Below are positions 19,992 through 35,127 of a stretch of 35,127 nucleotides of DNA, piece by piece. The stretch is from Gammaproteobacteria bacterium (GTDB lineage: Bacteria; Pseudomonadota; Gammaproteobacteria; GRL18), in the NCBI GenBank assembly GCA_016744395.1, contig JADGEK010000042.1, positions 1 to 35,127 of the forward strand, in the 5' to 3' direction. The first letter of the stretch is position 1, and every line of letters starts with the position of its first letter. Under the pieces are notes generated by a model. The model was not told the DNA's origin and did not search any database. It was given only the letters and a program-made list of their open reading frames with translations. The translations under genes were made by a program, and so were the position numbers.

Positions 19992-22043
19992 TCATTTCTC
20001 AGGTAATTTTTTCTTTGCCTTAAGTGCGGGAAATATTCCATTAAGAACACCACCTGCCAGGCCAATGCTGTAAATACCCAGAGCGCCATAAACGCCAAGG
20101 TGAAAGAAATAGGCGCCACCAATATTAATCATATTTGGAATGATGTCCCAGAGCAGGCTTTTCTTATAATTACTTTCCAGGCTTTCAGACAGTTCAAAGA
20201 GTTTGGGGAATTGTTGCAGGTTATCATCCATTAATACGATCTGTGCGGTATCGGCGGCAATTGAAGACGCGCTGTTCAATGAAATGGAAACATCTGCTTG
20301 TTTCAATGCGATGGTGTCATTGATGCCATCACCAACAAAACAAACCGATTTCCCCTGCTGCTGTAATTGCTTGACGATATCCGCCTTGTCTTGCGGCATG
20401 GTTTCAGCAAAATAGTGGTCAATACCTAATTCACTGGCCAGGGCTTGAGTGGGGTTTTCATGGTCTCCCGAAATGATAGCCAGTGACAAACCACGGAGTT
20501 TTAACTGTTTGATAATATCCTTTGCTTCTGGACGAATAGTGGGGTGGAGTTCAATGATCCCGGCCAGTTGCTGGTCTACTGCAATATAAACTAATGAATA
20601 GCCCTGTTGATTGGCATCATCTTGCAGAATATTATAATCACTTGAAACCGATATATTTTCCAATGCCATAAATCGGCCGCTGCCGACCCGAATGGTCTGG
20701 TTGTTGACGGTCACTTTTATTCCATAACCTATTTCATACTGAGTATCATCAATAATGGGCAGTGTTAATAGCTGTTCTTCAACCGCTTTTAAAATGGCTT
20801 TGGCAATCGGGTGCTTTTGTTTATATTCAGCTGTGGCAGCATAGATGAGCACCTCTTCTTCAGTGAAAGAGTGATTGGCGTAAATTTTTCCTATATGGGG
20901 GATCTCTTGAGTGAGTGTTCCTGTTTTATCAAAAACAATCGTGTCGATGTTCTTCAAGTGCTCCAAAGCACGTCCATCTTTAATCAGTAGCCTATGCTGT
21001 GTTGCATTGGACAGGTGACTTAATACGTTAAGGTTGCCTGTGATATTAAGATGATCAATCAACGCTGAATCCAGTACCACTAAAGCACTGGTATAACCAG
21101 CAACAGGTAGTGCAAGTGCACCTAAAAAGAGCGAAGGGAACGCCAGCTGGTCTGATAGTTTTTCAACGCGTAGCTCCACAGAAGCAGTATAATCGGTGGT
21201 ATCGTTTAAGAGTAACTGAATTTGAGAAGCAACAGTTTCATCACCTGCTTTTTCAACTTTTACCCAGATTTTTCCAGTGAGCATCAGGGTGAATGCAAAA
21301 ACAGATTCGCCTGTTTCTTTTTCTGAGGGCTGAGCCTCCCCTGTCATGGCTCGTTGATCAATACTGGCAAAGCCCTTGATGATTGTGCCATCAACAGGAA
21401 TGGTTTCACCTCCCTGAATCACTGCAATATCACCCACCTGTAAATCTTCAAAATTTATTTCTATTTCAATACCATCCTTTACTATCCAAACGGTACTCAT
21501 ACACTCCTGAAAGATATGCGTTAACTGATTATGTGAGCTGTTTTTAGCCTTGGCCATCACCTTGAGGCCCATATAATAGAGCCAATAACCAAAGGCTGCG
21601 ACAGGAAGATAGCCTGAGCCTATTAGCAAGGGCAGGGTCACCAGGTTAACCATATCAACTTTGAGTTTACGCTGATGAACAATACCATGATAAGAACGCT
21701 GCACCATAGGAATGGTCAGATAAGCGAGAGTGGCGATACTAATCAGTGAAAAGGGTGGCAGCCAGATGCCAACAAGAGTCGTGCCCATGGCAATACTGGA
21801 GAGTGTTAAATGCCCGTCAATCCATTCTTCAACACTCGCTATATCCGTATCCTGAAGTGCTTCCTTATCAGGAATCAGCTCCTTCTTGCTCACCTTCTTA
21901 TCAGATAAAGAGTTATCAAGTGTAGGAAGTGAGATGATATATTTTTTGTAATTGACTTTTTTTGGATATTTTTTATGCACAAGTGCAGAGGCAAGAAAGC
22001 TGCTCCCCATACCACTTATCAACAATATTCCATTGACTAGCAT
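19992..22043 (-). CDS. P-type ATPase, P1B-like but lacking the CPC motif
   Basis: A 683-residue P-type ATPase. Visible are the actuator loop TGEA (residues 234-237), phosphorylation motif DKTGTLT (Asp372), nucleotide-domain HP (411-412), GDHENP-like hinge and GDGIND (571-576). Overall shape is P1B: no N-terminal HMA domain, an odd Lys-rich linker (about 24-65), membrane pairs before TGEA and two at the end. The membrane helix before DKTG, where P1B pumps have CPC, reads VVLDSALIDHLNITG (322-336) with neither Cys nor the usual Pro, so classical Cu/Zn/Cd transport is unlikely. Its ATG overlaps the stop of the upstream carboxynorspermidine dehydrogenase by 7 bases. A polyamine or other organic cation substrate is inferred from this coupling only. 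Confidence 0.85.
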   Translation of the reverse strand: MLVNGILLISGMGSSFLASALVHKKYPKKVNYKKYIISLPTLDNSLSDKKVSKKELIPDKEALQDTDIASVEEWIDGHLTLSSIAMGTTLVGIWLPPFSLISIATLAYLTIPMVQRSYHGIVHQRKLKVDMVNLVTLPLLIGSGYLPVAAFGYWLYYMGLKVMAKAKNSSHNQLTHIFQECMSTVWIVKDGIEIEINFEDLQVGDIAVIQGGETIPVDGTIIKGFASIDQRAMTGEAQPSEKETGESVFAFTLMLTGKIWVKVEKAGDETVASQIQLLLNDTTDYTASVELRVEKLSDQLAFPSLFLGALALPVAGYTSALVVLDSALIDHLNITGNLNVLSHLSNATQHRLLIKDGRALEHLKNIDTIVFDKTGTLTQEIPHIGKIYANHSFTEEEVLIYAATAEYKQKHPIAKAILKAVEEQLLTLPIIDDTQYEIGYGIKVTVNNQTIRVGSGRFMALENISVSSDYNILQDDANQQGYSLVYIAVDQQLAGIIELHPTIRPEAKDIIKQLKLRGLSLAIISGDHENPTQALASELGIDHYFAETMPQDKADIVKQLQQQGKSVCFVGDGINDTIALKQADVSISLNSASSIAADTAQIVLMDDNLQQFPKLFELSESLESNYKKSLLWDIIPNMINIGGAYFFHLGVYGALGIYSIGLAGGVLNGIFPALKAKKKLPEK

Positions 22044-23257
22044 TCCTCAATCCTTATTGAAGTAGGCAAGCCCATTGTTTTTAGTAAGTCTAGAAAAGGA
22101 TCAGCATCAAGCTCTTCCACATTGACCATTTTTTTGACATCCCATGTCCCTTTGGCAATTAATATGGCTGCTGCAACAGGTGGCACGCCTGCTGTGTAGG
22201 AGATAGCTTGTGATTCAACTTCCTTATAGCATTCCTGATGGTCGCAAATATTGTAGATAAAAATCGTTTTTTCTTTCCCGTCTTTTTCACCTTTAATCAG
22301 ATTGCCAATACAGGTTTTTCCTGTATATCCTGCAGCTAAAGAGGAAGGATCAGGCAGGCAGGCTTTGACTACTTTTAAAGGTATCACCTGTTGCCCTTCC
22401 GCTGTGGTAACGGGTTCGTGACTGAGCAGACCAATATTTTCCAGCACCTGAAAACAGTTTAGATAATGATCACCAAAACCCATCCAGAAACGCACTGTGT
22501 CAACATCCATATTGATGGACAGAGAATGTACTTCATCATGCCCCATTAAATACACTTTTTGTTCGCCAGCCGCAGGAAATGGGTAAGACATGGATATTTC
22601 ATGGTGTTCACATTCTTTCCATTGTCGATCTTCCCAGTAACCCACGTCTTCAAGAATTTCCCGCAGATTGATTTCCGGGTCAAAATTGGTAGAGAAGTAT
22701 TTGCCGTGATCCCCCGCGTTAACATCCATAATATCGATCACATTGATCTTATCGAATTCATGTTTTAAGGCATAGGCACAATAGGCATTGACGACACCAG
22801 GATCAAAACCTGCGCCCAGAATAGCCGTTAATCCTTTTTCGGCAAACTGTGGTTTACGTTTCCAGTCAAATTCAGCATACCAGGGGTATGGTGCATTAAT
22901 GACATTAATATCTTCCGTGACTGCCGTATCAATATAGGCTGCTCCCGCTTCCAGGCAAGCATCCATAATGACTTCATTGATAAATGCTGTACCAACGTTA
23001 ATCACGATGTCAGAGCTTGTTTCCTGTATGGCCATGACAACATTATCACGTTTGCTGGCATCAAGCTGTATGCCATAGAGCTGTTTATTTTTGTCTTTCA
23101 GATTATCTTTTCTATGCACACTTTCAATAATAGCTTCACACTTCTCAAAGGTTCTTGAGGCAATGCAGATATCACCCAGGATATCATTATTTTGAGCACA
23201 TTTATGTACAACGACTGAACCAACCCCGCCTGCACCGATAATGAGCACATTTTTCAT
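22037..23257 (-). CDS. Carboxynorspermidine (carboxyspermidine) dehydrogenase, second copy
   Basis: A 406-residue saccharopine-dehydrogenase-family enzyme. A Rossmann motif opens the protein (IIGAGGVGSVV, residues 6-16), followed by ILGAGFDPGVVNAYCAYA, DIMDVNAGDHGKYFSTNF, YLMGHDEVHSL and RFWMGFGDHY. The family reductively condenses aspartate beta-semialdehyde with 1,3-diaminopropane or putrescine to carboxynorspermidine or carboxyspermidine using NADPH. It starts one base after the stop of its paralogue, with which it shares most motif residues, and overlaps the P-type ATPase start. Which diamine each copy prefers cannot be told by eye. Confidence 0.88.
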   Translation of the reverse strand: MKNVLIIGAGGVGSVVVHKCAQNNDILGDICIASRTFEKCEAIIESVHRKDNLKDKNKQLYGIQLDASKRDNVVMAIQETSSDIVINVGTAFINEVIMDACLEAGAAYIDTAVTEDINVINAPYPWYAEFDWKRKPQFAEKGLTAILGAGFDPGVVNAYCAYALKHEFDKINVIDIMDVNAGDHGKYFSTNFDPEINLREILEDVGYWEDRQWKECEHHEISMSYPFPAAGEQKVYLMGHDEVHSLSINMDVDTVRFWMGFGDHYLNCFQVLENIGLLSHEPVTTAEGQQVIPLKVVKACLPDPSSLAAGYTGKTCIGNLIKGEKDGKEKTIFIYNICDHQECYKEVESQAISYTAGVPPVAAAILIAKGTWDVKKMVNVEELDADPFLDLLKTMGLPTSIRIEEC

Positions 23258-23258
23258 A

Positions 23259-24497
23259 TCAGTATCCCTCTTTCTCAGAGCATGATTGAGTTATCTCAGT
23301 ACTGAGTCCCATCTTATCCAGTAACTCAATAAAGGGATCGGGATTAAGCTCTTCCACATTAACCATGTGTTTGACATCCCAGCTGTCATTGGCAATCAGG
23401 ATAGCTGTTGCCGCTGCGGGCACACCTGCAGTAAAGGAAATCGCCTGGGATTCCACCTCTTCATAGCAGGCTTCATGATCGCAGGTATTATAGATAAAGA
23501 TTTCTTTTTCTTTGCCGTTCTTTTTGCCCTTAACCAGATTACCAATACAAGTTTTACCCGTGTAGTTTTCAGCAAGAGATGCTGGGTCAGGCAGACAGGC
23601 TTTAACCACTTTTAGTGGTACGACTTCCTGACCTTCTGCGGTTGTCACGGGTTGTTCAGAGAGTAAACCAATATTATTTAATACATTAAAGCAGTTAATA
23701 TAATGATCGCCAAACCCCATCCAGAAACGAATGGTATCCGCCTTAATATTTTTGGATAGAGAATGCAGTTCATCGTGTCCGGTTAAATAAATGGTTTGCT
23801 CGCCAACGACAGGGAATGTGTAGTTTTGTTTTTCTGAATGCACGGCTTTACTCACCCATTCACCCCCTATCCATGTCCAGACCTGTCCAGTAAATTCCCT
23901 GAAATTGATTTCAGGATCAAAATTAGTTGCGAAGTATTTTCCATGATCACCAGCATTAACATCCATAATGTCGATGCTGTCGATTGTGTCAAAACAATGT
24001 TTCGCTGCATAAGCACAATAGGCATTGACAACACCAGGATCAAATCCAGCACCAAGAATAGCCGTTAGTCCTTTTTCCTTGCAGGCATCCAGATATTTCC
24101 ATTCATAGTTGGCATACCAGGGTGGATTTTCACAGATCTTGTCGGGATCTTCATGAATGGCCGTGTCTATATAGGCCGCTCCAGTTTTCAGGCAAGCCTG
24201 CAACACTGACATATTAATAAACGGACTGCCAACATTGATAACAATCTCTGAATGGGTGTCTTCAATCAATTGTGCGGTGGCCTCAATATCCATTGCATCA
24301 ATCTGCCGGGAATACAGTGCTTTACCACTGTCTTTCAAGTTGTCTTTACGCTCTACACTGTCAATGATTGCATCACATTTGCTCAGAGTTCGGGATGCAA
24401 TACAAATATTACCAAGAACATCATTGTGTTGGGCGCATTTATGTGCGACTACATTAGCAACGCCACCCGCACCAAGAATAAGTATATTGTTTTTCAT
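23259..24497 (-). CDS. Carboxynorspermidine (carboxyspermidine) dehydrogenase, first copy
   Basis: A 412-residue paralogue of the next gene with the same blocks: nucleotide-binding ILGAGGVANVV (residues 7-17, Ala where the copy has Gly), ILGAGFDPGVVNAYCAYA, DIMDVNAGDHGKYFATNF, YLTGHDELHSL, RFWMGFGDHYINCF and VVKACLPDP. It lies between the decarboxylase gene and the second copy, so carbon flow would be dehydrogenase to decarboxylase. Tandem duplication with divergence at the substrate-side loop (VWTWIGGEWVSK here, VGYWEDRQWKEC in the copy, about residues 205-220) suggests different diamine acceptors or a heteromer; this is inference. Confidence 0.88.
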   Translation of the reverse strand: MKNNILILGAGGVANVVAHKCAQHNDVLGNICIASRTLSKCDAIIDSVERKDNLKDSGKALYSRQIDAMDIEATAQLIEDTHSEIVINVGSPFINMSVLQACLKTGAAYIDTAIHEDPDKICENPPWYANYEWKYLDACKEKGLTAILGAGFDPGVVNAYCAYAAKHCFDTIDSIDIMDVNAGDHGKYFATNFDPEINFREFTGQVWTWIGGEWVSKAVHSEKQNYTFPVVGEQTIYLTGHDELHSLSKNIKADTIRFWMGFGDHYINCFNVLNNIGLLSEQPVTTAEGQEVVPLKVVKACLPDPASLAENYTGKTCIGNLVKGKKNGKEKEIFIYNTCDHEACYEEVESQAISFTAGVPAAATAILIANDSWDVKHMVNVEELNPDPFIELLDKMGLSTEITQSCSEKEGY

Positions 24498-24535
24498 TTA
24501 AGAAATTCCATATGTAAATTGCAAACAGGGAATAT

Positions 24536-25675
24536 TCATCCCAGATTTTGCTTAAAATCACTATAGTTAAACGTCTTTACTGTGTCATATTGACCATCCA
24601 GACGCTTGATAACAATAGACGGCATTTTCAAACCATTAAACCAGTTCATTTTAACCATCGTATAACCTGCTGCATCAGAAAAATGAATCTGGTCGCCTGT
24701 TTGTAATGGGGTATTAAAATCATATTCACCAAATATATCCCCGGCAAGGCAGGTCTTGCCAGCGATCATATAATGATAATTGTCATGCTGATTGCTGCTC
24801 TGTTCATTACATCGTTTACTCCGTTGCACTTTTTCAATTTCAGCGGGCTCTTGATAAATCAGCAAATCCAGCATGTGTGCTTCTGTTGAACTATCGACAA
24901 TCGCAATGTCCATTTCATTGTGAACAATATCCAGTACCGTCGTCACGAGACTGGCAGAGTCCGTTATTGCTGTTTCTCCAGGTTCGAGGTAAATCTGTAC
25001 TCCAAACTGCTCACCGAATGACTTTAATTTAGCGGCAAATTTCTCCAGAGGATAATCATCCAGTGTAAAATAGAGCCCACCGCCCAGGCTCACCCAGTCC
25101 AGTTGATGTAATAAATCATGATAGGTTTTACCGATATGATCCAGTTGCTGCGAAAAATCATCAAAATCCTTATTTTCGCAGTTGTAATGGAACATGACGC
25201 CATTGATTAAATGCGCTATTTCCATTACTGATGAGTCATCGGTGACTCCCAATCGTGAATACTGGCGGGCAGGGTCTGCCAGATCATAGTCCGAACAACT
25301 GATATGCGGATTTATTCGTAAACCGACATCCACTGTATCCAGTTCAGCATAAAAAGTTTTTAACTGCTTAACCGAGTTAAAAATCACTTTATTGGCATAT
25401 TGCTTTAAGTCGTGGATTTCATCTTGTGAAAAAGCCACACTATAAGCGTGTACTTCTTTGCCAAACTCCTCATAACCCAGTTTAGCTTCATACAATGAGC
25501 TGCTCGTAGTGCCATCCATATAGGCTTGCATGAATTTAAAAACAGGCCAGGTGGAAAAACATTTTAATGCCAGTACTGACTTGATATTTGCGTGTTGACC
25601 TAACCACTGGATTTTCTCCAGATTTTTTAATAATTTTTGTTCATCAATAACATAACATGGCGTGTTAAAATGCAT
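24536..25675 (-). CDS. nspC: Carboxynorspermidine decarboxylase
   Basis: A 379-residue PLP-dependent alanine-racemase-fold decarboxylase. From the ATG at 25675, FNTPCYVIDEQKLLKNLEKI opens the barrel, the PLP lysine is Lys38 in VLALKCF, YMDGTTSSSLYEAKLG follows, the phosphate loop is SLGGG (about 198-200) and EPGE (231-234), and the C-terminal active-site Cys-Asp is TCLAGDIFGEY (Cys309, Asp313). It removes CO2 from carboxynorspermidine or carboxyspermidine to give norspermidine or spermidine. The longer frame back to 25768 would overlap the SpeD-like gene by about 100 bases and adds no family sequence. The chosen start lies inside the SpeD-like gene, 11 bases before its end, so translation is coupled. 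Confidence 0.92.
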   Translation of the reverse strand: MHFNTPCYVIDEQKLLKNLEKIQWLGQHANIKSVLALKCFSTWPVFKFMQAYMDGTTSSSLYEAKLGYEEFGKEVHAYSVAFSQDEIHDLKQYANKVIFNSVKQLKTFYAELDTVDVGLRINPHISCSDYDLADPARQYSRLGVTDDSSVMEIAHLINGVMFHYNCENKDFDDFSQQLDHIGKTYHDLLHQLDWVSLGGGLYFTLDDYPLEKFAAKLKSFGEQFGVQIYLEPGETAITDSASLVTTVLDIVHNEMDIAIVDSSTEAHMLDLLIYQEPAEIEKVQRSKRCNEQSSNQHDNYHYMIAGKTCLAGDIFGEYDFNTPLQTGDQIHFSDAAGYTMVKMNWFNGLKMPSIVIKRLDGQYDTVKTFNYSDFKQNLG

Positions 25676-26108
25676 GTTGTGTGCTTGTAGTGAGCTTCGC
25701 TGATCTGTCGTGATCTTGAAATGGCGACTGAAGTGGCAAATCAATACCCCGATCCAGGAAAGCGGCACGAATTTGTTGTGGGGAAAAATGCTTTTCTACC
25801 ACCTGAATCGCCATATCCTTATCAATGCTTTTGCAGGAAAAAATATCCAGGTAGGCGTCACGATTGTTGTCACTAAAATGCCCCATGATAGCGGATGTTT
25901 CTATTAGCTGTACCAGCGAATAACCTGCAGCTTCGTAACTGTGTTCGGCAAAATGTACAATAACGGGCTCACCATAGGCTACCATTTTGATCGCTTTGAC
26001 CAGCTCTTTGACAAAGCGACTGATGTCTTCCTTGCGGCAAATATTTTCATTGCAGCCACCAAGATCCAATACAAGATGCTGCCCCCATGGTTTGCGGTTT
26101 TCTGACAT
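25665..26108 (-). CDS. SpeD-family pyruvoyl decarboxylase
   Basis: A 147-residue homologue of S-adenosylmethionine decarboxylase proenzyme. GQHLVLDLGGCN (residues 9-20) matches the SpeD opening. The self-cleavage region reads LIETSAIMGHFSD: aligned to the classical ESH..HTWPE block, Ser72 would become the pyruvoyl group, the residue before it is Thr71 rather than Glu, His77 is kept, and DIFSCK (Cys92) matches the FTC catalytic Cys. Such divergent SpeD homologues include pyruvoyl ornithine or arginine decarboxylases, so this may supply putrescine or agmatine rather than decarboxylated SAM. It is the first gene of the polyamine operon, with GAGGAG 6 bases before ATG. Confidence 0.78.
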   Translation of the reverse strand: MSENRKPWGQHLVLDLGGCNENICRKEDISRFVKELVKAIKMVAYGEPVIVHFAEHSYEAAGYSLVQLIETSAIMGHFSDNNRDAYLDIFSCKSIDKDMAIQVVEKHFSPQQIRAAFLDRGIDLPLQSPFQDHDRSAKLTTSTQHAF

Positions 26109-29067: not shown

Positions 29068-29304
29068 TCAAGGTGATGCTATTTCGGAAATTGACCCACA
29101 GGTTCCACAGTCGCTACGGGATACAGCAACGCCTGTTTTTGAAGTAGCCACATTAGCAGAACCTTTTGCAGAAGTAGCGGCTTTTGTAGAGGTCGATTTT
29201 GCTGCAGTGCTGAATTTTGCCATACAAGCCTTTGCAGCAGCGCCCGCTTTTGTAGCACAAGCAGCTGCCCCTTTTGATAGTACATATTGGCTAACAGGAT
29301 CCAT
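29068..29304 (-). CDS. Small Ala/Lys/Thr-rich low-complexity protein
   Basis: I use the ATG at 29304 (78 residues), as GAGGAC lies 8 bases upstream; an in-frame start at 29334 adds ten residues. After MDPVSQYVLSKGAAACATK the protein is built of Ala, Lys, Ser and Thr (KAGAAAKAC, STAAKSTSTKAATSAKG) and ends with a CGTCG pair. The KAA pattern resembles histone H1-like or phasin-like bacterial proteins and the second Lys/Ala-rich protein at 30523. The two share an ACAT-Lys/Ala start region. It is divergent from that gene across a P-type ATPase relic. Function unknown. Confidence 0.65.
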   Translation of the reverse strand: MDPVSQYVLSKGAAACATKAGAAAKACMAKFSTAAKSTSTKAATSAKGSANVATSKTGVAVSRSDCGTCGSISEIASP

Positions 29305-29334
29305 TATCAAGTCCTCGAAAAATGTTAAAAACAT

Positions 29335-30522: not shown

Positions 30523-30927
30523 ATGGCTACTACCGAATACCAGGCCGCCATGGCAAGACTTGCAGCGGACACTAAAACGGCCTGCGCAACTTCTGCTGAT
30601 ATAGTTAAAGCAGCTAAAGCTAAAGCAGCAGCTAAAGCCGCTCATGCAGCTAAAGCGGCTCAAGCTGCTGAACTGGCTAAAGCCGCTCAAGCTAAAGCTG
30701 AAGCAGCTAAAGCAGTTAAAGTCGCTGAAGTGGCTAAAACATCTAAAGCGGCTAAAATGGCTGCCAACCCTGTTACAAAAGGTTTTTCCTATCACGCCAA
30801 AGCTGCTTTTCTCACCCATCCTGTTTATTTTTCACTCGCTGGAGGTGTTATCATAGGCATTGTCGCCTATCGCCTTGTGAACAAATACTGGCTGAGCAAA
30901 GATGTTACTGCTGAACAAATTTCATAA
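30523..30927 (+). CDS. Lys/Ala-rich repeat protein with C-terminal membrane helix
   Basis: A 134-residue protein. Residues about 27-80 are a Lys/Ala repeat (KAAKAKAAAKAAHAAKAAQ and similar), likely one long basic helix, as in histone H1-like and phasin-like proteins. A C-terminal segment (PVYFSLAGGVIIGIVAYRL, about 100-118) is a membrane helix or amphipathic anchor, followed by KYWLSKD. GAGG lies 9 bases before the ATG. The DNA repeats GCTAAAGC units, which produces long antisense frames that are shadows. The basic tract could bind nucleic acid, polyphosphate or a membrane surface. Its relation to the adjacent P-type ATPase relic is suggestive only. Confidence 0.75.
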   Translation: MATTEYQAAMARLAADTKTACATSADIVKAAKAKAAAKAAHAAKAAQAAELAKAAQAKAEAAKAVKVAEVAKTSKAAKMAANPVTKGFSYHAKAAFLTHPVYFSLAGGVIIGIVAYRLVNKYWLSKDVTAEQIS

Positions 30928-31005: not shown

Positions 31006-31038
31006 AAAAAATAACTTCGATTCAGTGCTCACCGAATC
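31006..31038 (-). terminator. Weak terminator at the end of the thiohistidine operon
   Basis: On the minus strand GATTC and GAATC pair around a 10-base loop (31019-31038), overlapping the methyltransferase stop codon, and are followed by TTATTTTTTTAT. The stem is only 5 bp, so confidence is limited. Confidence 0.35.
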
Positions 31039-31778
31039 CGCCTCCAAGTCGTTAATTGTGCAATTGTATGCTGAAATTTACGCTTGGTTTCGCGGATCAC
31101 AAATGGCACATCAAGCGGTTTATTGATCATAGTAAAATGAGCATCCAATACTTTTGTAATACCCTCTAATACCGTCATATTTTTTTCATCGATACGATAC
31201 CCACCTATCCAATTTTCACGAGGGGTATATTCTGCTAACAGTGTATAAGGTGAACTCATCACTAATATGCCACCCATAGACAGGTATTGATGAACCGAAC
31301 TTAAAAATTGTTCTGGATTTTGCAAACGATCCAATAAGTTGCCAGCAAAAATCAGATCATAATCCTGATGATGCGCCCCCAGATTGCAGGCATCTTCCTG
31401 ATAAAATGACACCTTGCCTTTTATCTGCTGCAACTGACGATCGCTTAATTGAGCTGTGTGTAAAGTGCTTAACTCACCTTCATCCGTGACACTATAAGGC
31501 AGACTGCCCTTTTCTTTTAGTTGATTTGCACATTCAATAAAGCGGGCAGACAGGTCAACACCGACAACCTCATCGAATTCACGTGCCAGTTCAAAGGAGG
31601 TTCTCCCTACCGCACAGCCTAAATCCAGCGCTTTTCTTTTACTGCCTTTTGCCATTAGCTGAAGACAGAGTTCGGCGCACTTTTCAGGGTAGTTTTTTAC
31701 ATCAAAATAACTATTTCCATAGTGGAAATCCAGATATTGTGCGACCAGTTCATCAGTTTCATAGGGGTTTATATTCAT
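31029..31778 (-). CDS. OvoA C-terminal-type N-methyltransferase, stand-alone
   Basis: I start at the ATG at 31778 (249 residues) because AGGAT precedes it by about 7 bases and family members begin NPYETDELV; an upstream ATG at 31793 adds five residues. NPYETDELVAQYLDFHYG and DLGCAVGRTSFELAREF (motif I at residues 52-58) match the methyltransferase domain fused to OvoA, the putative 4-mercaptohistidine N1-methyltransferase. Here it is a separate gene. VVGVDLSARFIECA, VSFYQEDACNLG, DLIFAGNLLDRL and WIGGYR follow in the usual order. It is the last gene of a five-gene run, 49 bases after the EgtB/OvoA-like enzyme, so the two enzymes probably act in sequence. Confidence 0.85.
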   Translation of the reverse strand: MNINPYETDELVAQYLDFHYGNSYFDVKNYPEKCAELCLQLMAKGSKRKALDLGCAVGRTSFELAREFDEVVGVDLSARFIECANQLKEKGSLPYSVTDEGELSTLHTAQLSDRQLQQIKGKVSFYQEDACNLGAHHQDYDLIFAGNLLDRLQNPEQFLSSVHQYLSMGGILVMSSPYTLLAEYTPRENWIGGYRIDEKNMTVLEGITKVLDAHFTMINKPLDVPFVIRETKRKFQHTIAQLTTWRRIR

Positions 31779-31827
31779 AAATAAATCCTGCATGTCTCAT
31801 TTTAAATAAGTAAAGATTGATCTTTTA

Positions 31828-33174
31828 TCAAAGTGCGCAAGTACGAAAGCCCACAAATGCATCCGTTCTGTCAGGTAAATAAGCCTGACGGTAAGTACCG
31901 CGAATAAGGATGGAGGATGTTGCACAAGAGCCGCCCTTAGTGGTTTTATGATAGCCAAACTGTAAAGTGGACATAAACGGATACATATCAATGGTAAATC
32001 CAGCATAGGGAAGGTACTGGCTGGATGTCCATTCCCACGCAGTACCCTGCATTTGACGACAACCGAAGTCACTTTCCCCTTCTGGATAAGCCGTTACAGG
32101 CACATGTGCCATATGAATGCCATTCATATCAACTTTGTCGGGGTCCATAGTGTCTCCCCACGGATATTTCTTAAACGGCAGCCCTTTCTGGTTATTTAAT
32201 GCCGCCGCTTCCCATTCATATTCTGTGGGCAATCTACGCCCTGCCCAATTACAGAAAGCTTCAGCTTCCCAATAGGAAATATGCATGACGGGGTAATCAG
32301 GGACCAGCGGCAACCATTGGTCAAAATGACGCTCCAGCCAATGACCATTCTCCTGTTTCCAATACAGGGGATGCTTTGGAAGGGTCATGTTTATCTCAGG
32401 TGGGGTACTGGTATTTAGCTCTGTTCTCAGCCATTTTTTACCGCCCCAGCTCCAGAGTTGTTCATTGTCATAGCCACCATCCTCAACAAAGCTTAGAAAT
32501 GCCTGATTGGAAACCAGTGTTTTTGAAATACTGAAGGCATCAATATCGATTTCAAAACGGGGCTTTTCAGTGTCAAAGGCAAAATCATCCGTTGCAAAAG
32601 ACTTCGAGTCCGTAGGCATTCCAATGACATAGCATCCCGCTGGAATATCGGCATCATCAGATAACATCGCCTTATCAGCAGAAATGGAGGATTGTGTTGT
32701 ATCTGCACCCTCTTTGGAATAAGCCATTTTGGAATAGGCCACCGTCTGTCGCGCCCAGATAAGGGATTCAATGTGCATATTCTGATGATAAATAGCATAA
32801 TTATAAAGGTACAGATCACCCTGACTGAATTCTATGTTTTCAATTCTCGCGAGGATTCTCTGATGAATTTCTTCAATATAATCAAGAGTCTCTTTTTTTG
32901 AAGGCACTACGCCAGGCTTCCAGCGATCTTCATGGTCAATATTGAAAGAGTCCCAGATATTATCCATGGCAGGGTTAAAAGATTGCGCCTGATCCAGAGC
33001 TTTAAGAATAAAGACTTCAAAGAAAAATGCAGCATGACCCACCTCCCACAAGGGAGGATTAACCCCAGGATGGTATGGGATTTGCAGTTCATCATCAGAA
33101 AGTGTGTTGATTAAAGCAACAATTTTTTGCTGGGTATTGTTTAGTTCATGAATCAGGTCATCTTTATTATTCAT
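31828..33174 (-). CDS. EgtB/OvoA/SenA-type non-haem iron sulfoxide or selenoxide synthase
   Basis: A 448-residue protein with an N-terminal DinB-like four-helix domain (about 1-150) and a formylglycine-enzyme-type C-lectin domain (about 175-448). The iron-binding three-His facial set is intact: His47 in EVGHAAFFFE, and His130 and His134 in YHQNMHIE. The C-terminal half shows ISYWEAEAFCNWAGRRLPTE, GTAWEWTSSQY and RGTYRQAYLPDRTDAFVGF. Family members join a thiol or selenol donor to the imidazole of histidine using oxygen. It lacks the fused methyltransferase of OvoA, which is encoded by the next gene. No EgtD, EgtE, SenB, SenC or OvoB is in the window, so the exact donor and product are open. 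Confidence 0.85.
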   Translation of the reverse strand: MNNKDDLIHELNNTQQKIVALINTLSDDELQIPYHPGVNPPLWEVGHAAFFFEVFILKALDQAQSFNPAMDNIWDSFNIDHEDRWKPGVVPSKKETLDYIEEIHQRILARIENIEFSQGDLYLYNYAIYHQNMHIESLIWARQTVAYSKMAYSKEGADTTQSSISADKAMLSDDADIPAGCYVIGMPTDSKSFATDDFAFDTEKPRFEIDIDAFSISKTLVSNQAFLSFVEDGGYDNEQLWSWGGKKWLRTELNTSTPPEINMTLPKHPLYWKQENGHWLERHFDQWLPLVPDYPVMHISYWEAEAFCNWAGRRLPTEYEWEAAALNNQKGLPFKKYPWGDTMDPDKVDMNGIHMAHVPVTAYPEGESDFGCRQMQGTAWEWTSSQYLPYAGFTIDMYPFMSTLQFGYHKTTKGGSCATSSILIRGTYRQAYLPDRTDAFVGFRTCAL

Positions 33175-33202
33175 TTAGAAGTTCTCTTGTACTGATAACC
33201 TG

Positions 33203-33571
33203 TTACGACTCATCTTGTACTTTCATACGGTAGCCATTGGGCAAGCAGGTGACCGCCTGTTTGACCCTGACAATATCGTCCTGATATGGCTGGTGGTTCA
33301 GACACCCCAAAGATAATGCCTGTAGTGTTTTATAGGCCCAGATAGGCAGTTCAGGGTGTAAACGATAGAAAATCCATAGCCCTTCACGCCTGTCCAGCAA
33401 TATATTTTTCTTGCGCAATATACTGAGGTGACGTGACATCTTGGGCTGTAGTACATCAATGGCATCCGTCAGTTGGCAAACACATAACTCTTCTTGTTGA
33501 ATAAGTAATACCATTATTCTCAACCGGGTTGGATCAGAAATAGCATGTGTGAAATCATCAGGAACTAGCAT
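33203..33571 (-). CDS. ArsR-family metalloregulator
   Basis: A 122-residue winged-helix repressor, started at the ATG at 33571 because AAGGA lies 7 bases upstream (a GTG at 33589 adds six residues). The ArsR opening HAISDPTRLRIMVLL is followed by ELCVCQL, whose Cys30 and Cys32 form the ELCVC arsenic/antimony-type sensing site in the DNA-recognition region. The helix LQPKMSRHLSILRKKNIL and wing DRREGLWIFYRL follow. It should leave its operator when it binds trivalent arsenic or a similar soft metalloid. It lies in the middle of the operon and probably controls the promoter before the permease gene. Confidence 0.9.
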   Translation of the reverse strand: MLVPDDFTHAISDPTRLRIMVLLIQQEELCVCQLTDAIDVLQPKMSRHLSILRKKNILLDRREGLWIFYRLHPELPIWAYKTLQALSLGCLNHQPYQDDIVRVKQAVTCLPNGYRMKVQDES

Positions 33572-33619
33572 AGATAAATCCTTGTGCACCGTATAACATT
33601 GATGATATTAGAAAGACTG

Positions 33620-33886
33620 TTAGCAGCATTCGTCATCAGCTGGACAACAGCTTAATTTAAACCAGGACAGGATAGTCTTCTTGTCTGGAATACCTCCAGC
33701 ATGGGCAATTTTTCCGTCAACAATAACCCCAGGTGTAGACATGATGCCATAAGACATAATCTCTGCCATATCCTCTACTTTCTCAAGGTTTATTTCTATG
33801 CCGTTTTCACTGGTGACATCTGCTATCAACTTATGGGTTGTTTGACAATTTTTACAACCCGGACCTAATACTTTTACTTCAATCAT
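33620..33886 (-). CDS. Small thioredoxin-fold redox protein, CxxC
   Basis: An 88-residue mini-thioredoxin of the redox-active disulfide protein 2 type. MIEVKVLGPGCKNCQTTHKL carries the CKNC centre (Cys11, Cys14), STPGVIVDGKIAHAGGIPD has the cis-Pro loop, and the C-terminus adds four cysteines (CCPADDECC, residues 80-88) that could bind a soft metal or metalloid. GAGGT lies 4 bases before the ATG. Such proteins are commonly encoded next to DUF318 permeases and ArsR. It starts 8 bases after the permease stop, so co-translation is likely. Confidence 0.88.
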   Translation of the reverse strand: MIEVKVLGPGCKNCQTTHKLIADVTSENGIEINLEKVEDMAEIMSYGIMSTPGVIVDGKIAHAGGIPDKKTILSWFKLSCCPADDECC

Positions 33887-33893
33887 AATGACC

Positions 33894-34856
33894 TCACAAA
33901 ATGCTATTTAAAAACCAGCCAACGAGAATAATGGACAGGGTTACAATGCTTGTAAACAGGGCTAAAGCCTGCCATTTGATAACCTTTCTCAAAATAACCA
34001 GTTCTGGAACTGAAATGGCTGCAATACTCATCATAAATGCCAGTGTTGTGCCTATGGCGACACCTTTTAGTAACATGGCTTCTGCCAGCGGAATAACGCC
34101 AACAGCATTTGAGTAAAGCGGTACGCCCATAATAACCGCCATGGGAACGGCCAGAAAATTATTGGCATCCCCAAGATTTGATGCCCATTCCTGCGGAAAA
34201 TATCCATGAAACAAGGCACCTGCGCCAACACCAAGAATCACCCACTTCCAAATACGACCAACAATGGTTTTTACTTCTGTCAGGGCATATCGATGCCTTG
34301 CTTGTAATGAATTATCTTGCTCCAGAGTCTGAGCTTCTCCCATGCGGATCTTCCAGACATAATCTTCAACCCAGCGTTCGGGCTTAAACTTCTGGATAAT
34401 GATACCACCAACAAAAGCGACAACCATGCCTGAAAAAATATAGAGTGCCGTTATTTTCCAGCCAACAATACCGAAAAGCATGACGACAGCGATTTCATTG
34501 ATCATTGGACTGGCAATCAAAAAAGAAAATGTGACGCCCAGCGGGATGCCCGCTTCAACAAAGCCTATAAAAAGTGGGACTGACGAGCAGGAACAGAAAG
34601 GCGTTACAGCACCCAGCAAAATCGCCAGACTACGCGCGACCCATTCTTTCCTTCCCTGTACATAGTTTCTGACCTTTTCAGCTGAAACAAATGAACGAAA
34701 GAGTCCCATTAAATAAATCACCAATATCAGCATAAAAAAAATCTTGGTGATATCCATGACAAAGAAATGAAGGCTTTGTGCAACAGATGTATCTGCCTGC
34801 AAACCTGCAACTTCAAAAACGATAAAGTCCGCAAGTCTATTAAACATAAGATCCAC
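33894..34856 (-). CDS. DUF318 (UPF0718) permease, ArsP/YraQ-like
   Basis: A 320-residue polytopic permease. The signature TPFCSCSSVPLFIGF (Cys88 and Cys90 in this numbering) and LIASPMINEIAVVMLFG are typical of DUF318, which includes the ArsP organoarsenical permeases. About eight TM segments flank a cytoplasmic loop (about 165-200), and PLYSNAVGVIPLAEAML closes the second repeat. The track start is GTG at 34856; an ATG three codons later (34847) is an alternative, with weak ribosome-binding support for either. First gene of the operon with thioredoxin, ArsR, the iron enzyme and a methyltransferase. It could export methylated trivalent arsenicals or a pathway product; inference. Confidence 0.87.
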   Translation of the reverse strand: MDLMFNRLADFIVFEVAGLQADTSVAQSLHFFVMDITKIFFMLILVIYLMGLFRSFVSAEKVRNYVQGRKEWVARSLAILLGAVTPFCSCSSVPLFIGFVEAGIPLGVTFSFLIASPMINEIAVVMLFGIVGWKITALYIFSGMVVAFVGGIIIQKFKPERWVEDYVWKIRMGEAQTLEQDNSLQARHRYALTEVKTIVGRIWKWVILGVGAGALFHGYFPQEWASNLGDANNFLAVPMAVIMGVPLYSNAVGVIPLAEAMLLKGVAIGTTLAFMMSIAAISVPELVILRKVIKWQALALFTSIVTLSIILVGWFLNSIL

Positions 34857-34901: not shown

Positions 34902-35043
34902 ATTGGACAAGGTATAGTGGATAACAGTGGTGGTATAAGACTATTTTGATTGGACTTCCTTAAAGTTCATGCTCAAAGCATATATGCTGACACGAATATG
35001 ATACCTCAATAATAATAAAAGTCAATAGAGAGCCTTGTCCAAT
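34902..35043. repeat. 11-bp inverted repeats bracketing the operon promoter
   Basis: ATTGGACAAGG (34902-34912) and CCTTGTCCAAT (35033-35043) are exact reverse complements 120 bp apart, one downstream of the start of transcription and one upstream of the -35. They could be ArsR operators or ends of a small element. Confidence 0.5.
34998..35025 (-). promoter_or_regulatory. Sigma-70-type promoter of the permease operon
   Basis: On the minus strand TTGACT (35020-35025) and TATCAT (34998-35003) are separated by 16 bp. The leader to the permease start would be about 135-145 nt. ATTGGAC motifs flank it: 34902-34912 and 35033-35043 form an exact 11-bp inverted pair, with another ATTGGAC at 34949-34955. 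Confidence 0.5.
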
Positions 35044-35045
35044 GC

Positions 35046-35094
35046 GAAATGAGCCTGAACAAAAGAGGTGATTCTAACGGGAAATGAGCCTGAA
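35046..35094. repeat. Pair of 14-bp direct repeats at the right edge
   Basis: GAAATGAGCCTGAA occurs at 35046-35059 and 35081-35094, with a period of 35 bp. Repeated identical blocks of this size near a gene boundary resemble multiple transposase-binding repeats at an insertion-sequence end, but the window stops at 35127 before any transposase. Confidence 0.45.
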
Positions 35095-35127
35095 ATAGGT
35101 CGATTTGGTTAAAAATCGTTCATGATC

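Follow-up and report, generated by a model that had tools for sequence, protein, structure and literature searches.

Why would genes of a metalloid type share an operon with the enzymes of a small-molecule pathway? The question is raised by five genes in a stretch of 35,127 nt from a gammaproteobacterium (lineage GRL18), which makes up the entire contig JADGEK010000042.1 (C10, hereafter the window) of a 4.87 Mb genome in 212 contigs (GCA_016744395.1). These genes encode a permease (ArsP), a mini-thioredoxin (Trx), an ArsR-type regulator, an iron enzyme and a methyltransferase. The explanation that we regard as probable is that they form an operon for ovoselenol, lying in a larger selenium-metabolite cluster, with an arsP-thioredoxin pair that was recruited once and with ArsR in control.

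The iron enzyme (31828..33174, minus strand) belongs to the EgtB superfamily. Its best match among solved structures was OvsA (PDB 8u41), aligned over the full length (603 bits, E = 4e-180, 57% identity); EgtB (172 bits), SenA (8k5i; 160 bits, 7e-46) and OvoA (79 bits) matched less well in the same search. It scored far below the cut-off of the OvoA N-terminal domain model (121 against 400 bits) and narrowly below that of the SenA model (410 against 420 bits). The active-site motif YPFMS/YRQAY, with its Met and Gln-Ala, is present in the window enzyme and in all OvsA sequences compared and absent from all SenA sequences, which carry Tyr and Asn-Phe/Tyr at those positions. The solved variant 8ux5 exchanges exactly the Met, Gln and Ala of OvsA for Tyr, Asn and Phe, the residues of most SenA sequences compared. 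A maximum-likelihood tree placed the enzyme within OvsA and separate from SenA with full support, and an OvsA duplication in this tree predates the split of the two genera described below. By sequence, motif and tree, the enzyme is OvsA, the ovoselenol selenoxide synthase (this copy, OvsA1). SenA was considered and rejected, as the enzyme falls under the SenA cut-off and carries the OvsA motif. The original prediction had described an EgtB/OvoA-type enzyme; the superfamily was right, and the OvoA type is ruled out by the model scores, the solved-structure matches and the motif.

The methyltransferase (31029..31793, minus strand; probable start 31778) matched TIGR04345 with 330 bits (cut-off 170), a model that bears the name of the OvoA C-terminal domain. 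Among characterized proteins, OvsM (PDB 9bxh) gave 275 bits, versus 248 for the OvoA C-terminal domain and 231 for OvoM. The tree grouped it with OvsM and set OvoM and the OvoA C-terminal domains apart (support 98/95), although some branches are long and the finer placement is uncertain. Sequence and tree together identify it as OvsM, the 5-selenohistidine N-methyltransferase. OvoA shares the superfamilies of this pair, but it is a fusion of both domains that uses cysteine and acts together with OvoB. The split ovothiol-type pathway with an OvoA-type methyltransferase that had been proposed from the sequence thus gives way to OvsA plus OvsM, and the likeness to the two-enzyme ovoselenol arrangement noted at the same time is borne out by the matches to the solved enzymes.

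All five genes lie in the same direction on the minus strand, within 31029-34856. The permease gene (33894..34856) encodes an ArsP_1 (DUF318) domain (Pfam PF03773, E = 4e-65), and its probable start is the ATG at 34847 (MFNRLAD), favoured by the alignment of homologues and by a ribosome-binding-like site. It is followed by the gene for a CKNC mini-thioredoxin of the MTH895/ArsE family (33620..33886; TIGR00412, 91.5 bits, cut-off 62) and that for an ArsR/SmtB-family regulator with an ELCVC motif (33203..33589; NF033788, 86.7 bits, cut-off 55). The gaps from arsP through trx, arsR and ovsA to ovsM are 7, 30, 28 and 49 bases, the last being counted to the ovsM start at 31778. A sigma-70-like promoter (TTGACT-16 nt-TATCAT; 34998..35025, minus strand) precedes arsP. 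The consensus scan alone was not above chance (10 found, 10.4 expected from shuffles); hexamers and spacing of the kind TTGACA/T-16-TATCAT recur, though, before arsP in all six genomes compared (that of the window and five relatives), and about 40 bases 3′ of the promoter are largely conserved among them. At the ovsM end, a pattern scan marked a terminator-like hairpin (31019..31038, minus strand), the number of such hairpins found being not above the shuffled expectation. Predicted co-transcription of the five genes is well supported by this anatomy and by the genome comparison. The genes, order and tight packing of the operon are as originally predicted.

The selenium-donor enzymes are located outside the window, as had been noted, and a genome-wide look for SenB and SenC homologues found them. 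Contig C185 encodes SenB (421 bits, cut-off 300), adjoined by a 753-residue fusion of a pyridine-nucleotide-disulfide oxidoreductase with SelD, which is a SenC candidate, and by a selenate-type ABC transporter (TIGR04553, above cut-off); the same contig carries an EgtD gene. The fusion is one of two SelD-type genes of the genome that exceed the cut-off, the other being on contig C40 together with an ECF-type sigma factor, a second OvsA (OvsA2, 69% identical) and a true SenA (479 bits, cut-off 420). On C40 (L018:4204-7573), OvsA2 and SenA form a tandem with the ECF-type (SigZ-like) sigma factor gene ahead of it, divergent from selD. In the selenoneine pathway, SenC or SelD supplies selenophosphate, SenB makes the selenosugar, and SenA couples it to hercynine (PMC10891094). 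With SenA, EgtD, OvsA, OvsM, SenB and SelD-type genes, the genome therefore holds parts for both selenoneine and ovoselenol. The view that selenium donors are absent was rejected once the donor genes had been located on C185 and C40; the presence of SenB, the SenC candidate, SelD and the selenate-type transporter makes the selenium route the parsimonious one.

Comparison of 24 genomes of the family showed that SenB and OvsA occur in the same six, from two genera (G000, G005, G007, G012, G019 and G021), and in none of the other 18. The chance of such an exact match would be about 1 in 134,596 if the genomes were independent; they are related, so that this figure is a rough guide only. All six also hold OvsM, together with an ArsP that has 94% identity or more to that of the window. 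In G005 (locus L021) and G007 the genes are contiguous: SenC, SenB, the ABC transporter, a PatB-type C-S lyase, a TauE-type permease (not found in G007), an unassigned methyltransferase, ArsP, Trx, ArsR and OvsA (in part of the clusters) and OvsM. In G012 and G021, SenB is on the contig of the operon, 7-9 kb away. The stretch of C-S lyase, TauE-type permease and methyltransferase upstream of arsP was also seen at L106:6980-9762 and L064:5259-8041.

All six genomes have, upstream of the permease gene, a gene for a PatB-family C-S lyase (above the TIGR04350 cut-off), and OvoB is a broad-specificity beta-lyase (PMC12631010). These two points speak for a sulfur pathway, in which OvsA1 and OvsM would make 5-thiohistidine or ovothiol with the lyase in the part of OvoB; as a thiol, the product would protect against arsenic. 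The match of OvsA to selenoxide synthases, its score far under the OvoA cut-off, the position of OvsM away from OvoM in the tree and the perfect co-occurrence with SenB all count against a sulfur product, which we consider very improbable.

In the genome of the window, C185 ends with PatB, TauE and the methyltransferase, and C10 begins just before ArsP. The contig edge upstream of the promoter (35041..35127) is a repeat, probably the end of an insertion sequence. Its 20-mer GAAATGAGCCTGAAATAGGT (35081-35100) has seven exact copies in the genome, mostly or all near contig ends, including that of C185, and the adjoining ends of C185 and C10 bear the same repeat. Judged by synteny, not by direct reads, the two contigs are most likely neighbours.

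The operon varies among the six genomes. All five genes are found in G000 and G005; G021 lacks ArsR, G012 and G019 lack OvsA1, and G007 lacks both. Each genome without OvsA1 encodes OvsA2 elsewhere. In G012 and G019, short relic frames remain between arsR and ovsM (L093:4991-5122 and L095:7859-7985); they start with ATGAATAATAAA, as ovsA does, and that of G012 ends as the ovsA C-terminus. From these relics and the varied arrangements, a five-gene ancestor is most simply reconstructed, from which the shorter forms arose by loss of ArsR in two genomes and of OvsA1 in three. The original prediction had raised the question of whether the enzyme genes separate from the permease in relatives. The core of permease, thioredoxin and OvsM is intact in 6/6 genomes, and it is ArsR (2/6) and OvsA1 (3/6) that are missing. 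Because no pathway-bearing genome of the two genera has permease, thioredoxin and methyltransferase apart, the linkage is not attributed to chance. In a DNA comparison of arsP (33894-34847) with L093 of G012, the middle of the gene is 99-100% identical, against about 90% for the other parts of the operon; either a recent recombination or strong conservation may account for this.

The metalloid-type genes have relatives in other contexts. The permease has the ArsP_1 domain with a CSC motif that is invariant in the 14 ArsP proteins compared, which makes it a candidate member of the ArsP efflux permeases for trivalent organoarsenicals. The NCBIfam functional models SaoE and SO_0444 matched it only below cut-off, and no solved ArsP homologue was found by sequence. 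The mini-thioredoxin, which ends in CCPADDECC, also accompanies ArsP where relatives have ars-type loci. The regulator belongs to the winged-helix family and has the Cys-x-Cys (ELCVC) of ArsR metalloregulators; the LCVC motif is kept in ars-type ArsR proteins of relatives, and where E. coli ArsR has the third Cys of its metal site, the window protein has Thr. In relatives without OvsA and SenB, ArsP and thioredoxin lie beside a divergent ArsR (G008, G015) or behind ArsR (G016), and G017 and G023 have an ArsR-ACR3-thioredoxin-GAPDH-MFS-ArsP set, with an ACR3 in G017 that exceeds its model cut-off and with GAPDH and ArsJ named by reading the sequences. Such sets are typical of arsenic operons. 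These loci share with the window a homologous permease (62-78%), the thioredoxin and a Cys-x-Cys ArsR; they differ in having no selenium enzymes downstream and an ArsR, divergent or upstream, that shares only about 37-51% identity with that of the window. The ArsP proteins of the six selenium-linked genomes form one clade (100/97) among ArsP from arsenic-type contexts. This clade speaks for a probable single recruitment of the arsP-thioredoxin pair from an arsenic-type module in an ancestor of the two genera.

The arsenic-type loci of relatives also fit another explanation, namely that a common promoter is all that joins two adjacent units, an ordinary arsenic module of ArsR, ArsP and thioredoxin and, parked downstream of it, ovsA and ovsM, which would be coupled in expression and not in function. 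The double loss of ArsR with the remainder kept, and the second locus for OvsA2 in the same genomes, agree with it. Yet ArsP, Trx and OvsM stayed together in all six genomes despite deletion of the genes between them, and none of the six has a second ArsP of the same type; such a coincidental union seems possible but unlikely.

Outside the family, OvsA was encoded at 25 Marinobacter loci and one Halomonadaceae locus (53-59% identity). The latter (L031) is a compact SenB-OvsA-OvsM-SenC cluster. No relatives of ArsP, Trx or ArsR were found in the fetched flanks (up to 10 kb) of these 26 loci. Scanning viral contigs and plasmids for OvsA gave no match, and a draw of 369 genomes of the class had it only in the genus of the source bacterium. 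The link to ArsR and ArsP is therefore a lineage feature and not general to ovoselenol synthesis, and within what could be searched it is confined to this family.

In the ovoselenol operon that we favour, the selenate-type ABC transporter would import selenium, SelD or the SelD fusion would activate it, and SenB would make the selenosugar, which OvsA may join oxidatively to histidine. OvsM would then N-methylate 5-selenohistidine to ovoselenol. ArsR most likely represses the shared promoter; binding of a soft electrophile, such as As(III), to its Cys-x-Cys would release the promoter, so that selenol and permease would be made together under metalloid or thiol stress. We infer the product, the target and inducer of ArsR, the cargo of the permease and the role of the thioredoxin from the genes and their arrangement. 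The original prediction was right that one five-gene unit couples ArsR, permease and thioredoxin to a pathway for an N-methylated chalcogeno-histidine; a response of this unit to metalloids would be putative. A more specific reading, a metalloid-inducible selenium system in which ArsR senses arsenic or another soft electrophile and switches on ovoselenol synthesis along with a dedicated permease and thioredoxin that export the selenol, its metalloid adduct or excess reactive selenium, is rather unlikely; if true, it would mirror thiol-dependent arsenic efflux with a selenium compound in place of the thiol. Several points weigh against the favoured explanation. The operon lacks ArsR in G007 and G021, hence ArsR is not essential to it; no ArsR operator is claimed, as only two of the genomes keep an intact near-palindrome behind the promoter; the predicted substrates of OvsA (selenosugar and histidine) depend on homology at 57% identity; and the presumed adjacency of C185 and C10 depends on synteny across a repeat-caused break.

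Some other genes of the window were observed in passing. A Beta-N-acetylglucosaminidase domain protein (PF07555; 27736-28809) is syntenic beside the operon in G005 and G021. Small Ala/Lys-rich AAKAAKA repeat proteins (30523-30927 and 29068-29334), without Pfam matches, resemble proteins that adjoin ovsM in relatives. Two tandem saccharopine-dehydrogenase-type genes with a PLP decarboxylase (22037-25768) may belong to a carboxyspermidine-type polyamine route.

Ovoselenol was discovered through genome mining. Its pathway of OvsA and OvsM with SenB and SenC is credited to Kayrouz et al. 2024 (Nat Chem, doi 10.1038/s41557-024-01600-2) where PMC13188914 cites that work. The window pair resembles it in the separate OvsA and OvsM genes, the OvsA active-site residues and the SenB and SelD-type donor in the genome. 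It differs in its operon, which also holds ArsP, an ArsE-type thioredoxin and ArsR, and in the genome around it, which adds a second OvsA and SenA. With the selenoneine pathway of SenA, SenB and SenC (PMC10891094) it has in common the selenium donors and the enzyme superfamily, SenA and EgtD being elsewhere in the genome, whereas the window enzyme has the motif of OvsA, not of SenA, and is paired with OvsM. Paper searches on OvsA, OvsM and ArsP-thioredoxin sets, which did not extend to the primary ovoselenol paper and its neighbourhood survey, turned up no account of the ArsR/ArsP/Trx linkage. The enzyme chemistry is that of the published ovoselenol pathway; what is new is that its genes share an operon with those for ArsP, thioredoxin and ArsR. 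From the sensor of ArsR type and the permease of metalloid type, a specific signal and a specific transport step for ovoselenol can be proposed, and the family shows two OvsA copies and SenA in one genome, as well as natural deletions that separate the parts.

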